Source of the DNA: Opitutia bacterium
GTDB lineage: Bacteria; Verrucomicrobiota; Verrucomicrobiia; Opitutales; Opitutaceae
Reading direction: 5' to 3'
Length of the DNA stretch: 11,260 nt
Assembly: GCA_003157575.1 (NCBI GenBank)
Contig: PMKA01000161.1
Span: forward strand, 248-11,507
The translations under genes and the position numbers were made by a program. The notes beneath the pieces are model-generated. The model ran no database searches, was not told the origin of the DNA, and worked only from the letters and a program-made list of their open reading frames with translations. Shown in pieces: positions 838 to 5,856 of the stretch (its first letter is position 1; each line of letters begins with the position of its first letter).

Positions 838-2334
838 ATGAAAACGACCATGGCATCCGAAGGCTCTCCTGATCTCAGCATTCAGCCTTCGACCCTTAAG
901 CCTTCCGGCATCGAAATTCTGCCATCGCGTGTCGCTTCCATTGCCGAGGCCGGAAAGCCCGGCAAGGGCGTAAATTGCGGCAAGACGAGCGTCGCGGGCT
1001 CCGTCTCGCAACGCGCGTGTGTCTTTTGCGGTTCGCGCGTTGTGCTCTATCCGATCGCCGATGCGCTGCACATCGTCCACGGGCCGATCGGCTGCGCGGC
1101 CTACACCTGGGACATCCGCGGGGCGCAATCGAGCGGCCCGCAGCTCTTCCGAAACGCATTCTCGACCGACCTGCAGGAGCTCGATGTGATTTACGGCGGC
1201 GAAAAGAAGCTCGAACGCGCCTTGCTTGAACTGATCGCCCGCCATTCGCCCAAGGCAGCCTTCGTTTACGGAACGTGCATCGTCGGCCTTATCGGCGACG
1301 ACGTTAATGCAATCTGCAAGAGCGTGGCCGCCGCGACGGGCATCCCCGTGCTCCCGGTTGCGAGCGAAGGCTTCAAGGGCACGAAGAAGGACGGGTACAA
1401 GGCTGCCTGCGAGGCCGTGTTTAAGCTGATTGGCACGGGGGACACCGCCGGGATTTCGCCGTTCAGCATCAACCTGCTTGGCGACTTCAACATCGCCGGT
1501 GAAACCTGGGTGATCCGCGACTACTTCGCCCGCATGGGCGTCGAGGTCGTCGCGACAATAACTGGCGACGGCAGGATCGACGCCATCCGGCGCTGCCACG
1601 GTGCAAAGCTGAACCTCGTCCAATGCTCGGGTTCGATGACGCACCTGGCCAAAAAGATGCAGGCCGCACACGGCATTCCGTTCAAGCGCGTCTCCTTCTT
1701 CGGCATCGAGGACATGTCCGCCGCACTTTATGAGGTGGCAAAACACTTCGGCTCCGATGAGCTGATGGAGAAAGCCCGCGCGGTTGTCCGCGACGAAGTC
1801 GGGAAGATTTATCCGCAGCTCCGCGCCTGGCGCGAGGACCTGAAGGGCAGGAAGGCCGCGATCTATGTCGGCGGTGCGTTCAAGGCGTTCTCGCTTGTGC
1901 GCGCCCTTCGCACGCTTGGCATGCGTACTGCACTTGTGGGCACGCAAACCGGCGATGCCGAAGACTACAACACGCTGCGCGAAATGTGCGATCCTGGTAC
2001 AATAGTCGTGGATGACTCGAACCCTATCGAGCTGGCGAAATTCTGCCTCGAACAGGACGTGGATCTTTTCATCGGCGGCGTGAAGGAGCGGCCGATCGCC
2101 TACAAGCTCGGCATCGGGTTCTGCGATCACAATCACGAGCGCAAGGAATGCCTGGCCGGCTTTGTGGGCATGCTGAACTTTGCGCGCGAGGTGCATGCGT
2201 CCGTTTGCTCGCCGGTGTGGAATTTTGTGCCGCGGCGGTCTCGTTGTAGGAGCCTGCTTGCAGGCGATTCCGAAGCAAACGCGAGCAAGCTCGCTCCTGC
2301 CTCCGGGCTGAAACCCACGGAGGCTGTCGCATGA
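838..2334 (+). CDS. nifE: Nitrogenase iron-molybdenum cofactor biosynthesis protein NifE
   Basis: NifE is the alpha-type subunit of the NifE2N2 scaffold, on which NifB-co receives molybdenum and homocitrate before transfer to NifDK. The 498-residue product shows the family hallmarks in order: ACVFCGSRVVLYPIADALH (60-78, Cys61 and Cys64), HGPIGCAAYTWDIRG (81-95, Cys86), STDLQELDVIYGGEKKL, YGTCIVGLIGDD (144-155, Cys146), NLLGDFNIAGE, the central cofactor-domain segment, and near the C-terminus DHNHERK and SPVWNFVPRR (458-467). It is slightly longer than usual. The extra length sits at both ends and is repeat-coded: residues 13-23 (LSIQPSTLKPS) come from a TTCAGCCTTC-type repeat, and residues 468-498 from REP-like elements. 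The start at 838 has GGAG ten bases upstream. An ATG at 850 is an alternative, and a TTG at 787 is unlikely. The stop overlaps the nifN start by 4 bp. Confidence 0.95.
   Translation: MKTTMASEGSPDLSIQPSTLKPSGIEILPSRVASIAEAGKPGKGVNCGKTSVAGSVSQRACVFCGSRVVLYPIADALHIVHGPIGCAAYTWDIRGAQSSGPQLFRNAFSTDLQELDVIYGGEKKLERALLELIARHSPKAAFVYGTCIVGLIGDDVNAICKSVAAATGIPVLPVASEGFKGTKKDGYKAACEAVFKLIGTGDTAGISPFSINLLGDFNIAGETWVIRDYFARMGVEVVATITGDGRIDAIRRCHGAKLNLVQCSGSMTHLAKKMQAAHGIPFKRVSFFGIEDMSAALYEVAKHFGSDELMEKARAVVRDEVGKIYPQLRAWREDLKGRKAAIYVGGAFKAFSLVRALRTLGMRTALVGTQTGDAEDYNTLREMCDPGTIVVDDSNPIELAKFCLEQDVDLFIGGVKERPIAYKLGIGFCDHNHERKECLAGFVGMLNFAREVHASVCSPVWNFVPRRSRCRSLLAGDSEANASKLAPASGLKPTEAVA
874..906. repeat. 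Decayed short-unit repeat inside the nifE 5' end
   Basis: The stretch CTCAGCATTCAGCCTTCGAC and the following CCTTAAGCCTTCC are degenerate copies of a TTCAGCCTTCAGCC-type unit. The same unit appears within the nifB 5' end (4041-4077) and, in the opposite orientation, after nifB (5346-5381). Here it is read in frame as LSIQPSTLKPS near the NifE N-terminus, ahead of the conserved core. Confidence 0.65.
2245..2300. repeat. REP-like palindromes inside the nifE 3' end
   Basis: A 24-nt unit at 2245-2268 begins TGTAGGAGCCTGCTTGCAGG and holds the hairpin GCCTGC-TT-GCAGGC. A related inverted unit, GCGAGCAAGCTCGCTCCTGC, follows at 2281-2300. An exact reverse complement of the first unit lies at 2387-2410 in nifN, and 19 bases of a further copy are at the right edge of the window (11242-11260). 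The pair sits downstream of the conserved NifE terminus and is translated as part of its tail. Confidence 0.85.
2319..2333 (+). promoter_or_regulatory. Shine-Dalgarno and overlapping start of nifN
   Basis: GGAGG at 2319-2323 lies seven bases before the nifN ATG at 2331. The nifE stop TGA shares bases with this ATG (ATGA), a typical arrangement for translational coupling that supports equal NifE and NifN synthesis. Both the Shine-Dalgarno and the start lie within the possible loop formed by the inverted REP-like copies at 2245-2268 and 2387-2410. Confidence 0.8.
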
Positions 2335-3917
2335 GCTCGGACGAGGCATTCTTCGCATCGAATCCGCTTCAAAACGCCGGCGGGAGATCGCCTGCAAGCA
2401 GGCTCCTACAACACAACGACGGCTCCTGCGATCCAGCCTTCGCATCCTGCGAGCCTGTACCTTTCGATGCGGTAGCAGAGAGGCCCGAGTTTCCATCGGC
2501 TTCGACGAACCCGTGCAAGCTGTGCACGCCGTTGGGCGCATGTCTGGCGTTCAGGGGCATCGCCGGCGCGGTTCCGCTGCTCCACGGTTCGCAAGGCTGC
2601 TCGACCTACATCCGCCGCTATCTGATCTCGCATTTCCGCGAGCCGGTGGACATCGCCTCGACGAATTTCTCCGAAGACACCGCCGTATTTGGAGGGCGCA
2701 AGAACCTGCATGTCGCGCTCGACAACATCGGCCGCCAATACCGTCCGGCGCTGATCGGCATCGCGACCACCTGCCTTTCCGAGACGATGGGCGAGAACAT
2801 GCCGATGCTCATCGGCGAATACGGTGCGGAGGCCCGGGATCTGCCTGCCGCCGTGGACCGCCCTGCCTTGGTGTACGTTTCGACTCCGAGCTTCAAGGGC
2901 ACGCATGCCGACGGTTTCCATGCTGCGGTCCGCGCACTCGTGGAAACTCTGGCGGAGGCGGGCCGGAAATCAGAGGTCGGAGGTCAGAAGTCAGAGGGCG
3001 AAGGGAGGAGATCGGAAATCGAAGATCGGAAAACGGAGATCCCACCGCGGCGCGTTGCCCTGATGCCCAACATGGTCTCCCCGGCCGACCTGCGACACCT
3101 CCGCGACCTTTGCTCGGAGTGGGGGACGGGCGTCACATTGGTGCCTGACTATTCGGAGACGCTCGATGGCCCGAGCTGGGCCGATTTCGAGCGCACGCCC
3201 GCCGGCGGAACGACAGTCGCCGAACTGCGCGCTCTCGGCGGCGCACCGGCCGCGATTGAGCTCGGGCATGTGCTCGCCCGCACGGAACATACGGCGGGCA
3301 CCCATCTGAAGTCCAAATTCCATGTTTCGCTCCATCGCATCGGCCTCCCCATCGGAGTGCGTGCGTGCGACGAGTTTTCCGCCGCCATGGAGGCGGCCAC
3401 CGGACGCGAGATGCCCCGGCGGATCGCCCTCGAACGCGGGCGGCTGGTCGACAGCTACGTCGACGCCCACAAGTACCTCGCGGGCAAAAAGGCGGTGGTG
3501 TACGGCGAGGAGGACCTCGTGGCCGGCCTGGCAGTCTTCCTCGCTGAGACCGGAGTTACCCCCGTACTCTGTGCAAGCGGCGGCCGGACGAAGCATCTGG
3601 CGGACGCGATCTTTGGCGCGGCCCCCGAGCTGCGCGGCCGCGCGGAGGTGCGCGAGGGCAGCGACTTTGGCGACATCGAGGCCCGCGCCGCCGAACTGAA
3701 ACCGGACCTGCTGATCGGAAGCAGCAAAGGCTACAAGCTCGCCCGTTCGCTGGGAATCCCGCTCGTGCGCTGCGGTTTCCCGGTGCACGACCGCCTCGGC
3801 GCACAACGCATCCGGTTGCTTGGTTATGCGGGAACCCAGGAGCTCTTCGACCGAATCGTCAACGCTGTGCTCGAAACCAAACAGGAGGACTCGGAAATCG
3901 GTTACGCCTATCTTTGA
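2331..3917 (+). CDS. nifN: Nitrogenase iron-molybdenum cofactor biosynthesis protein NifN
   Basis: NifN is the beta-type partner of NifE in the FeMo-co assembly scaffold. The 528-residue product has the anaerobe-type motifs NPCKLCTPLGACLAFRG (60-76; Cys62, Cys65, Cys71), PLLHGSQGCSTYIRRYLISH (82-101; Cys90), FGGRKNL (120-126), IATTCLSETMGEN (144-156; Cys148) and STPSFKGTHADG, then the C-terminal cofactor-domain half ending in EIGYAYL. It is longer than typical NifN for two visible reasons. About 58 poorly conserved residues precede the core, of which 19-27 are coded by a REP-like element. Residues 212-239 (charged, rich in R, K, S, E and G) are coded by a decayed short-unit repeat in a linker between two domains. 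Both additions keep frame and the conserved core is intact, so I judge it functional. The start is fixed by GGAGG and the 4-bp overlap with nifE. Confidence 0.95.
   Translation: MSSDEAFFASNPLQNAGGRSPASRLLQHNDGSCDPAFASCEPVPFDAVAERPEFPSASTNPCKLCTPLGACLAFRGIAGAVPLLHGSQGCSTYIRRYLISHFREPVDIASTNFSEDTAVFGGRKNLHVALDNIGRQYRPALIGIATTCLSETMGENMPMLIGEYGAEARDLPAAVDRPALVYVSTPSFKGTHADGFHAAVRALVETLAEAGRKSEVGGQKSEGEGRRSEIEDRKTEIPPRRVALMPNMVSPADLRHLRDLCSEWGTGVTLVPDYSETLDGPSWADFERTPAGGTTVAELRALGGAPAAIELGHVLARTEHTAGTHLKSKFHVSLHRIGLPIGVRACDEFSAAMEAATGREMPRRIALERGRLVDSYVDAHKYLAGKKAVVYGEEDLVAGLAVFLAETGVTPVLCASGGRTKHLADAIFGAAPELRGRAEVREGSDFGDIEARAAELKPDLLIGSSKGYKLARSLGIPLVRCGFPVHDRLGAQRIRLLGYAGTQELFDRIVNAVLETKQEDSEIGYAYL
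2387..2410. repeat. REP-like unit inside the nifN 5' end
   Basis: This 24-nt unit (begins ATCGCCTGCAAGCAGG) is the exact reverse complement of 2245-2268 in nifE. It is translated in frame as part of the NifN leader (residues 19-27, RSPASRLLQ), ahead of the conserved domain. Together the two copies make an inverted repeat with a 118-base spacer across the nifE/nifN junction. Confidence 0.85.
2964..3047. repeat. In-frame decayed short-unit repeat within nifN
   Basis: An 84-base purine-rich run of degenerate units such as GAAATCAGAGGTC, GGTCAGAAGTCAGAG and GATCGGAAATCGAAGATCGG interrupts nifN. Its length is a multiple of three. It codes for NifN residues 212-239, between the conserved blocks FHAAVRALVETL and RRVALMPNMVSP. 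Related units occur after the nifN end (from 3918) and, complemented, before the ferredoxin gene (5422-5462). Confidence 0.75.
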
Positions 3918-3960
3918 AGATCGGAAACGCTGAAACGCAAAAAAACTGAGAACCGAAACC
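3918..3960. repeat. Repeat-like spacer between nifN and nifB
   Basis: The 43-base spacer is made of units such as GATCGGAAACGCTGAAACG followed by an A-run and CTGAGAACCGAAACC. It resembles the decayed repeats elsewhere in the nif region. It contains no clear Shine-Dalgarno for nifB and no terminator hairpin, consistent with read-through from nifN. Confidence 0.4.
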
Positions 3961-5346
3961 ATGGACCCTGACATCACGAATCCAGTTCTGGATACCCGGT
4001 CTGTCGCGAGCGACATCCGCTCTGAACGGAATTCGGACCGTCAGTGTTCAGCCTTCAGCCCTTCAGTCATCCAGCCTTTGGATTTCTCCAGGCATCCCTG
4101 CTTCAGCAAGGAGGCGCACGGGAAATTCGCCCGGGTGCACCTTCCCGTGGCTCCGCGCTGCAATCTCCAATGCAATTTTTGCAACCGGAAGTTCGATTGC
4201 ATGAACGAGAGCAGGCCCGGGGTGACGAGCTCCGTGCTCCCGCCCCGACAGGCCGTGCCCTACCTTGAGGAGGTTTTTGCGCGGGTGAAGAACCTTAGCG
4301 TCGTCGGCATCGCCGGCCCGGGCGATCCGTTCGCCAATCCCGACGAGACGATGATCACGTTGCGGGCTGTCCGCGCGCGGTTTCCAGAGATGATGCTCTG
4401 TCTCGCGACGAACGGGCTGGGTGTGGCTCCGTATGTCGAAGAAATCGCGGCGCTGAAAGTGAGTCATGTCACGTTCACCGTGAACGCCGTCGATCCCAAT
4501 ATCGGCGCGAAGATCTATGCATGGATCCGCGACGGCAAGCGGCCGATGCGCGGCGTCGAGGCGGCAAAGCTTCTGCTCGAGCGTCAGATCGACGGAATCC
4601 GGCGGCTCAAGGCGCTGGGAGTGGTCGTGAAGATCAACTCAATCCTGATGCCGGGGATCAATGACACGCACATTCCCGAGGTTGCCAAAGTAATGAGGGA
4701 GCTCGGAGCCGACCTGATGAACGTGATGGCGTTTCTTCCCGTGAAAGGCGCAGCCTTCGAGGATCTCGCCCCTCCGGACAATCTTGATATGGTGCGGGCG
4801 CGGCTGCAAAGCGGCCTCCATCTGCCGCAGATGACCCATTGCGCCCGCTGCCGCGCCGACGCGGTCGGACTGATCAGCGAGGGGCTCAATCAGGAGAATA
4901 TGGAGCGCCTAAACCGGTTCGCGCGCGCCGATGTGCTGGGTGGTCGCAGTCGTCCCTACGTCGCGGTGGCGAGCGAGGAGGGCGCACTCGTCAACCAGCA
5001 CCTTGGCGAGGCGGCGCGCGTGCTGATCTTCAAGCAGGACCCGTCCACCCCGTCGGGATTCAAATTCCACGAGGTGCGCCGCACTCCGGAGCCCGGCAGC
5101 GGCGAACCTCGCTGGCGCGACCTCGCTGCGATCCTGCACGACTGTCGCGCGATTCTCGTCTCCGCCGCCGGTCCGAAGCCCAAGGGAATCATCGAGGAAG
5201 GCGGCGTCGAAGTACTCGAAATGGAGGGATTGATCGAGGAAGGCCTTGCAGCGGTATTCTCCGACCAGCCGATTCCAAAAACCCTTCAACGCCGCTTCAC
5301 CGCCTGCGGCGCCGGCTGCAGGGGCACAGGCGCGGGGTGCGGATGA
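3961..5346 (+). CDS. nifB: FeMo-cofactor biosynthesis radical SAM protein NifB with NifX-like C-terminal domain
   Basis: NifB fuses two [4Fe-4S] units and inserts carbide and sulfide to make NifB-co, the core passed to NifEN. The 461-residue product has the conserved opening HPCFSKEAHGKFARVHLPVAP (about 45-65), the radical SAM cysteines CNLQCNFC (Cys67, Cys71, Cys74), the following NRKFDCMNESRPGVTS, GIAGPGDPFANP (116-127) and the late pair MTHCARC (Cys294, Cys297). A NifX/NafY-type cofactor-binding domain follows (about 331-437, with NQHLGEAARVLIF), so this is the two-domain form. The tail ends with Cys449, Cys453 and Cys460 among glycines. Residues 1-42 are not conserved and come from repeat DNA: a small stem TGTCGCGAGCGACA at 4002-4015, then a CAGCCTTCAGCC run. 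No Shine-Dalgarno precedes the ATG; an in-frame TTG at 4078 would begin just before the conserved core. The start is therefore uncertain, the identity is not. Confidence 0.95.
   Translation: MDPDITNPVLDTRSVASDIRSERNSDRQCSAFSPSVIQPLDFSRHPCFSKEAHGKFARVHLPVAPRCNLQCNFCNRKFDCMNESRPGVTSSVLPPRQAVPYLEEVFARVKNLSVVGIAGPGDPFANPDETMITLRAVRARFPEMMLCLATNGLGVAPYVEEIAALKVSHVTFTVNAVDPNIGAKIYAWIRDGKRPMRGVEAAKLLLERQIDGIRRLKALGVVVKINSILMPGINDTHIPEVAKVMRELGADLMNVMAFLPVKGAAFEDLAPPDNLDMVRARLQSGLHLPQMTHCARCRADAVGLISEGLNQENMERLNRFARADVLGGRSRPYVAVASEEGALVNQHLGEAARVLIFKQDPSTPSGFKFHEVRRTPEPGSGEPRWRDLAAILHDCRAILVSAAGPKPKGIIEEGGVEVLEMEGLIEEGLAAVFSDQPIPKTLQRRFTACGAGCRGTGAGCG
4041..4077. repeat. Decayed short-unit repeat inside the nifB 5' end
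   Basis: Degenerate copies of a CAGCCTTCAGCCCTTCAG unit are read in frame as part of the non-conserved NifB N-terminus (CSAFSPSVIQP). The 13-mer TTCAGCCCTTCAG at 4054-4066 has its exact reverse complement at 5366-5378 just after nifB, so related repeats flank the conserved part of nifB in opposite orientation. Confidence 0.7.
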
Positions 5347-5381
5347 AAAGCTGAAAGCCAAAAAGCTGAAGGGCTGAAACC
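5346..5381. repeat. Decayed short-unit repeat after nifB
   Basis: The run GAAAAGCTGAAAGCC...GCTGAAGGGCTGAAACC consists of degenerate AGCTGAA units. This is the reverse-complement form of the repeats in the 5' ends of nifE and nifB. It begins at the nifB stop codon and has no terminator-like hairpin plus T-run. Confidence 0.65.
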
Positions 5382-5421
5382 AGAAGGCCGGGCATGACCG
5401 TGCCGAGGCCGAACTCCACAG

Positions 5422-5462
5422 AATCCCAAATCTCCGATCTCAGATTTCACATCTCAAATCTA
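5422..5462. repeat. Decayed ATCTCAAATCTCAGAT-type repeat before the ferredoxin gene
   Basis: Near-tandem units (CCCAAATCTCCGATCTCAG, ATTTCACATCTCAAATCTAA) fill the end of the 124-base gap between nifB and the ferredoxin gene. They stop eight bases before the ferredoxin ATG and leave no visible Shine-Dalgarno. On the opposite strand they read like the GGAAATCGAAGATCGG run inside nifN. Confidence 0.65.
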
Positions 5463-5784: not shown

Positions 5785-5856
5785 TGCAGGGCCCGACCTT
5801 GCGTCCGGGCCGTGAATGACGCCGGGGATGGTCCGCCGACGAGCGGCGACCCTACA
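5785..5856. repeat. REP-like inverted pair between the ferredoxin gene and nifV
   Basis: A palindromic unit at 5785-5811 (TGCAGGGCCCGACCTTGCGT then CCGGGCC) faces a second unit at 5835-5856. The second differs at only two of 22 positions from the right arm at 109-130. Both share the plan of the other REP-like copies: a TGTAGGG-like head and a short GC stem around a CTTG or CTCG centre. They occupy most of the 109-base gap before nifV. No T-run follows, so this is not clearly a terminator. Confidence 0.7.

Follow-up and report, generated by a model that had tools for sequence, protein, structure and literature searches.

The window analysed here, a stretch of 11,260 nt from an Opitutia bacterium of the Opitutaceae, carries a nif cluster in which three consecutive genes, nifE, nifN and nifB, contain in-frame runs of short DNA repeats. 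All three genes lie on the forward strand. nifE (838..2334, start inferred) matches TIGR01283 with 613.9 bits against a cutoff of 505.1, nifB (3961..5346) matches TIGR01290 with 382.6 bits against a cutoff of 343.65, and nifN (2331..3917) matches PF00148 with 382.9 bits and TIGR01285 with 282.6 bits, the latter below its cutoff of 326.8. A predicted model of NifN aligned with the structures 4wes_B (NifK) and 3pdi_B (NifN) at a template modeling (TM) score of 0.88 by target. The initial annotation had assigned the runs in the three genes to a single repeat family inserted repeatedly outside the conserved cores. Alignment with relatives upholds the in-frame, repeat-derived segments outside the cores. 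The run in nifN is strongly supported and those in nifE and nifB are genuine, short and decayed; the single family resolves into two unit families, and a third, palindromic element had been missed.

The most prominent run is an array of eleven 7-base units, arranged head-to-tail with the consensus RGARRTC (2965..3041, forward strand), which covers NifN codons 212-237 in the inter-domain linker. The encoded peptide (GRKSEVG GQKSEGE GRRSEIE DRKTEIP) has a 7-residue period, which a 7-base unit must give. The array scores 25 at lag 7 and 23 at lag 14, whereas lags 5, 6, 8-11, 13 and 15 all score at most 4. Chance low complexity can be ruled out for nifN, since a lag-7 score of 25 was reached by none of the 2775 windows of equal length taken from this sequence and by none of 3000 base shuffles. 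For nifE and nifB the evidence is weaker, and chance is unlikely. A further array of the nifN type lies between genes on the reverse strand (5430..5461), with a lag score of 15 that none of 2826 windows reached.

Among named bins, the closest nifN relatives carry the labels Verrucomicrobia or Opitutaceae, with ADurb.Bin122 (ADurb122) at the top at 71%; Opitutus terrae, to which we return below, is of the same family as these relatives. In a tree built from the joined core columns of NifE, NifN and NifB, the window falls beside (Loc163,(ADurb122,(WAS16,nzgw611))), with supports of 87, 99 and 100. Measured between anchors, the NifN linker (site B) is 147 nt in the window, 84 nt in ADurb122 and G024, 81 nt in VE3, 87 nt in G062, 90 nt in G038, 96 nt in Loc163, 99 nt in G039, 126 nt in nzgw611, 132 nt in WAS16, 207 nt in nzgw617 and 78 nt in the outgroups G121 and G108. 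The anchor failed for G050, G080, G010 and G057, which the protein alignment shows to be longer too. The net excess of the window is thus 63 nt over ADurb122 and G024, 66 nt over VE3 and 51 nt over Loc163; the insert of exactly 84 bases in the initial annotation is instead the length of codons 212-239. The array itself occurs at site B in none of the relatives examined. The inserts of WAS16, nzgw611 and nzgw617 at this site each carry, in our reading, a different GTAG-type palindrome, so that this single linker is occupied by four different elements in four lineages.

The runs in nifE and nifB are built from TTCAGCC-type units which, judged by their sequence, form a second family separate from the nifN heptamers; we read the two families as only loosely similar, with one of them reverse-complemented. 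A decayed run at 875..909 (forward strand) encodes NifE residues 13-24, and a run at 4041..4075 (forward strand) lies in the N-terminal region of NifB. A lag-7/8 score of 9 was obtained both at nifE 874-910 (reached by 5 of 2839 windows) and at nifB 4040-4080 (4 of 2862). The two runs are identical at 27 of 35 bases, as were 0 of 198,706 random pairs. The family pattern TTCAGCCTTCAGCCYTTCAG, searched with up to three mismatches, has 23 places in the genome and none for the reversed control. These places include 881-900 in the nifE run, an exact match at 4047-4066 in the nifB run, and 5366-5385, part of a TTCAGC-type run in the spacer that separates nifB from the ferredoxin gene (5350..5390, reverse strand).

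The nifE run extends the N-terminus; a similar run is present there in Loc163, and NifE of ADurb122, WAS16 and nzgw611 begins at the core. A mis-called start was rejected as the source of the extension because there is no in-frame ATG, GTG or TTG between the run and the conserved core. In nifB, the distance from CAGTG to the codons before HPCF is 45 nt in the window and 45 nt in the ordinary stretch of Loc163, and the run reads as a same-length replacement without net insertion, so that "replacement" fits as well as "insertion". At the position of the run, nifB of WAS16 has TCCGCAA-type heptamers. For nifB, net insertion is thus unsupported.

The third element is a GTAG-tagged repetitive extragenic palindromic (REP) sequence. 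One copy (2245-2264), together with an inverted partner-like half (2281-2300), forms part of the C-terminal tail of NifE (2245..2300, forward strand), and an inverted copy (2391..2410, reverse strand) forms part of the N-terminal extension of NifN; the perfect inverted copies span 2243-2268 and 2387-2412, and 2391-2410 matches the REP pattern without mismatch. The element, TGTAGGAGCCTGCTTGCAGG, combines the GTAG tag with a stem-loop, whose GAGCCTGC/GCAGGC-type stem was read from the sequence. With up to two mismatches, the REP half has 124 places in the genome (65 forward, 59 reverse) and none for the reversed control. In an own-genome sample of 748 kb (90 of 100 contigs, with coding and non-coding DNA assigned by a codon-based gene caller), 43 REP sites were found, of which two lie wholly within called genes, nifE among them; the family is thus high-copy and mainly extragenic. 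The N-terminal copy in nifN is left out of this inside-gene count, as the simple gene caller cuts that start. The partner half had one site in the 748-kb sample and one in the control, and no dispersal was seen there. Loc163 and WAS16 have doublets like 2245-2300 in nifN, and nzgw611 has one in nifE; the 57-nt doublet is open in five of six frames. The genome encodes five Y1_Tnp domains, one of them (C98:17592-17840) among REP copies, and transposases of the RAYT type are presumably what spreads the REPs.

A second GTAG-type palindrome, GTAGGGCCGCCGCTTGTCGGC, has 19 sites in the same sample and none in the control. An inverted pair of it (60-80 and 109-129) precedes the GNAT gene, and a variant lies at 5835-5855 before nifV. 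A REP-type repeat of this 19-site family also lies inside a Y-family polymerase-like gene (L170:14757-16385), where it separates the IMS domain from the IMS_C domain.

Together, the two REP copies are predicted to form a long hairpin around the nifE stop and the nifN start (2235-2420, z = -6.95; z-scores are from 60 approximate shuffles per region), which might tune nifN translation. It can be asked whether the terminal segments are merely the spill-over of transcribed intergenic elements into genes, for example hairpins at start codons that tune translation. Apart from this hairpin, structure was predicted in relatives at the nifE 5' end of L003 (z = -3.42), at the nifE-nifN junction of L004 (-2.87) and at its nifN-nifB junction (-2.27). 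None is seen at the window nifE 5' region (-0.55), the nifN-nifB junction (-0.76) or nifN site B (+1.32), and the internal NifN sites require a different cause. We consider spill-over rather improbable, and start-codon hairpins were rejected as a common theme, as they are present at nifE-nifN and in some relatives and absent at the three segments first noticed. In WAS16, heptamer arms lie at a like nifE-nifN place (z = -2.87).

Internal insertions were counted in the nif proteins as internal runs of at least 13 residues absent from most sequences, leaving out the NifN N-terminal region. In Opitutaceae, nine such insertions were found in NifN, in five of seven proteins, and none in NifE (0 of 6), NifB (0 of 6), NifD (0 of 5, one partial) or NifK (0 of 5). 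Two of the seven NifN are incomplete, ADurb122 is without any insertion and VE3 has one 6-residue run; the N-terminal region of NifN carries runs of 12-17 residues in six of the seven. Beyond this family, two such runs, each of low complexity, occur in one of 23 NifN (Treponema, L025), and two of 22 NifB have one run. NifE and NifB were thus dismissed as internal targets in this family, and internal insertion within the nif cluster is, on these alignments, a property of NifN at three loops that is not shared by all nif genes. At site A, WAS16 has five GGAATGC-type units (three exact) and an inverted partner (region z = -6.61), with weaker versions in Loc163 and nzgw611. At site C, Loc163 and WAS16 have a reversed REP doublet and G038 has a different inverted repeat. 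The segments are lineage-specific throughout, and conservation at the protein level across distant nif clusters was not seen in the alignment.

An AlphaFold2 model of NifN (28 sequences in the alignment) had a mean predicted local distance difference test (pLDDT) of 80.0 and a predicted TM score of 0.81. Residue blocks 211-240, a coil between helix 192-207 and strand 242-245, had mean pLDDT values of 51-55, and residues 1-62 were below 50. The surface disorder anticipated for the insert is accordingly suggested rather than proven: low pLDDT points to a probably disordered spacer peptide. A selected function, such as a charged NifN linker that binds NifX, NifY or NifB, could be read from the inserts remaining in frame and from the charged, soluble composition of the nifN insert. 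Such a function is very improbable, given that the sequence differs in every close relative, is absent in some, and is modelled with low confidence; our explanation would assign the segments no function beyond spacing.

The heptamer units recur elsewhere in the genome and are denser outside genes, in line with the repeat origin proposed initially. The pattern TCDGARR x3, with up to two mismatches, has 39 genome places (overlaps counted) against two for the reversed control. Scoring the 748-kb sample for period 7 at a score of 12 gave 7 segments in 630.5 kb of coding DNA and 10 in 117.6 kb of non-coding DNA, with 3 in a Markov control; at a score of 14 the numbers were 4, 7 and 1. Period 14 gave 7 coding and 11 non-coding segments (control 1), and periods 4, 5, 10, 11, 13 and 16 were close to control. 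Period 15 gave 21 coding and 8 non-coding segments (control 2), in which ordinary coding repeats are mixed with 7+8 TTCAG runs. The related genome G008 (20 stretches of 20 kb) shows the bias as well, with 4 period-7 segments in 344.2 kb of coding DNA, 21 in 55.8 kb of non-coding DNA and none in the control; of the periods not divisible by 3, only 7 and 14 stood above the rest. The unit AACTCTC makes up 11 of the 25 arrays in G008, and its four coding segments comprise two of AACTCTC, one close variant and one GC-rich run. In G008, the arrays at L258:6404-6494 and L276:9771-9869 form inverted pairs about 36 nt apart that resemble REP doublets. Inverted pairing as a general rule was rejected: it was found for 6 of 22 arrays against 0 of 44 random positions in G008, but for 0 of 12 against 1 of 24 in the own sample.

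Taken together, the segments match dispersed families, are lineage-specific, lie outside the cores and stay in frame, and we consider it likely that they are decayed copies of short repeats dispersed in Opitutaceae genomes, which entered permissive loops and gene ends and were kept where frame and fold survive. There would be two kinds of donor, heptanucleotide arrays and GTAG-tagged palindromes, both mainly intergenic. At gene ends and in a few permissive loops, such repeats would either be added or take the place of existing sequence; the copies retained would be those that spare frame and fold, giving a probably disordered spacer peptide. Several observations weigh against this explanation. 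NifN identity to the nearest relatives is about 70%, with no near-identical empty-site pair among them, and a NifN match was found in none of the five same-genus genomes searched (G001-G005); judged from these incomplete genomes, the distribution of nif in the genus is patchy. The pattern TCDGARR x3 with up to one mismatch is found in 55 of 115 related genomes, which is widespread but patchy, and the reversed control gives at least as many matches in G096 (1 versus 95), G066 (0 versus 23), G057 (4 versus 14), G010, G005 and G031. Outside genes, period 8 also exceeds its control in the own sample (2 coding, 8 non-coding, control 1), so units of 7 bases do not account for the whole class. The 17 arrays of that sample have 16 units, none dominant, which allows a local origin there, and the nifE and nifB runs are short.

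Arrays of this kind are not confined to nif. Of the seven coding period-7 segments in the own sample, two are GC-rich runs and the other five lie in four genes, namely nifN, an E1/transketolase fusion, an AMP-binding enzyme (two arrays) and an RsmB/F-type methyltransferase. We followed the AMP-binding enzyme in 16 of 19 matching genomes and the E1/transketolase in 15 genomes; both were chosen for their arrays in the own genome, which inflates the match rate and not the positional agreement. The AMP-binding enzyme has 13 lag-7 segments in 10 of 16 open reading frames (ORFs) and none at lags 5, 8, 10, 11 or 13. Twelve of these segments fall in two common loops and one (G009) in a third. In loop 1 the units differ among the own genome, G002, G004 and G005, all of one genus; in loop 2 the own genome and G003 have one common unit, and G001 and G002 differ. 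The E1/transketolase has six distinct arrays in six of 15 genomes (seven segments, one G001 array being counted twice), all in the inter-domain linker, with one segment each at lags 8 and 11. In G001 (C32, L256, locus base about 2624), the fusion breaks into two ORFs precisely where the heptamer linker lies; this linker is 89 nt long against 81 nt in three same-genus genomes; unless it is a sequencing error, the split may be the cost of a length change.

The tolerance of heptamers follows from a simple frame rule. Of the 16,384 units, 11,260 give pure arrays that are open in every frame of a strand and 5,124 give arrays open in no frame; no unit is mixed, and each array reads as the same seven residues, rotated, in each frame of a strand. 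Since 7 and 3 have no common factor, an array gives an identical heptapeptide in any phase; because it is open in all frames or none, its phase of entry is irrelevant and only a net length divisible by 3 matters. How an array reaches a loop is a separate matter, and templated repair, recombination or slippage could each contribute. Were it slippage only, 7-nt slips during replication of unconstrained codons would have built the heptamer arrays where they stand, and their likeness to intergenic arrays would be convergence. Passages in PMC4679880 and PMC4692102 report a proposal that 7 nt reflects polymerase contact, and slippage in place would suit both the different units found in one loop across species of one genus and the lack of a dominant unit in the own genome. 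However, any single 7-nt step disrupts the frame, and growth in 21-nt steps was rejected for want of a lag-21 excess: identities at lags 7, 14 and 21 are 0.80, 0.73 and 0.72 in coding and 0.77, 0.73 and 0.74 in non-coding arrays. Copying of ready-made arrays in repair or replication appears favoured over slippage in place because the G008 array in the AMP-binding enzyme loop has the commonest unit of its genome and because palindromes, which are not slippage products, occupy by our reading the same NifN loop in other lineages. We therefore regard slippage alone as unlikely. A broader proposal, which we advance tentatively and at somewhat less than even confidence, is that heptanucleotide arrays act as frame-independent linker donors in Opitutaceae, re-entering or replacing one another in fixed loops (NifN, the E1/transketolase fusion and the AMP-binding enzyme) with a turnover faster than that of the proteins and with an occasional switch between fused and split genes.

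Besides nifE, nifN and nifB, the cluster has a GNAT acetyltransferase, a 2Fe-2S ferredoxin, nifV and two ORFs without a Pfam match; it is followed by ribBA, ribH, nusB and an SRP54-type GTPase gene that we read as ftsY. An Rfam scan of the window gave no matches. The host assembly is 3.99 Mb in 546 contigs and 73.6% complete, and the window lies on contig 55.

These results bear on the long-standing question of where new protein stretches originate, since a single bacterial family allows donor repeats to be set against acceptor loops and several parallel outcomes, and a simple rule, that a 7-base unit reads alike in all frames, accounts for the tolerance of the heptamer class. The suggestion in the initial annotation that repeats provide a route to new protein segments is supported by these sequences as a tolerated, recurrent process that extends to enzymes outside nif and to which REPs contribute alongside heptamers. 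As a practical caution, the tails and loops of NifE, NifN and NifB in Opitutaceae, and similar linkers elsewhere, may be repeat-derived and are unfit for motif or domain inference.

Several known systems resemble parts of this picture. Passages of PMC3733652 describe GTAG as the tag of one REP super-family and report intragenic GTAG-REPs, most numerous in Opitutus terrae; as here, these are GTAG-tagged palindromes, often doublets, in frame inside genes. The text of that paper contains neither "nif" nor "nitrogenase", and the passages compared do not treat heptamer arrays. REPINs are covered by PMC3116915. Bacterial heptanucleotide repeats are described, in the parts of PMC4679880 and PMC4692102 compared, from cyanobacteria, Xanthomonas (GGGAATC) and Beggiatoaceae (TAACTGA). 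They have 7-base units, are over-represented in many genomes, are mostly intergenic with some at gene edges, and form inverted pairs in Xanthomonas. With a 7-base period above chance, the arrays described here qualify as heptanucleotide tandem repeats (STRR/LSSR-like); the described units TAACTGA, GGGAATC and GGGGAYT are shared by neither RGARRTC nor the 17 own-sample arrays. The known repeats, as described there, are mainly intergenic or peripheral to proteins, whereas those found here also occupy inter-domain linkers and internal enzyme loops, at fixed positions with changing units. Rickettsia palindromic elements, described in PMC10969869 as in-frame insertions of ~150-bp palindromes in unrelated metabolic genes, are likened by mechanism only, as in-frame entry into conserved genes is also seen here, and no membership is claimed. 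Among open-licence papers, nothing was found on heptamer arrays as recurring protein linkers in fixed positions or in this family. Intragenic palindromic repeats are thus already known from O. terrae, and the 7-base arrays that recur in fixed protein linkers appear to be a new variant.

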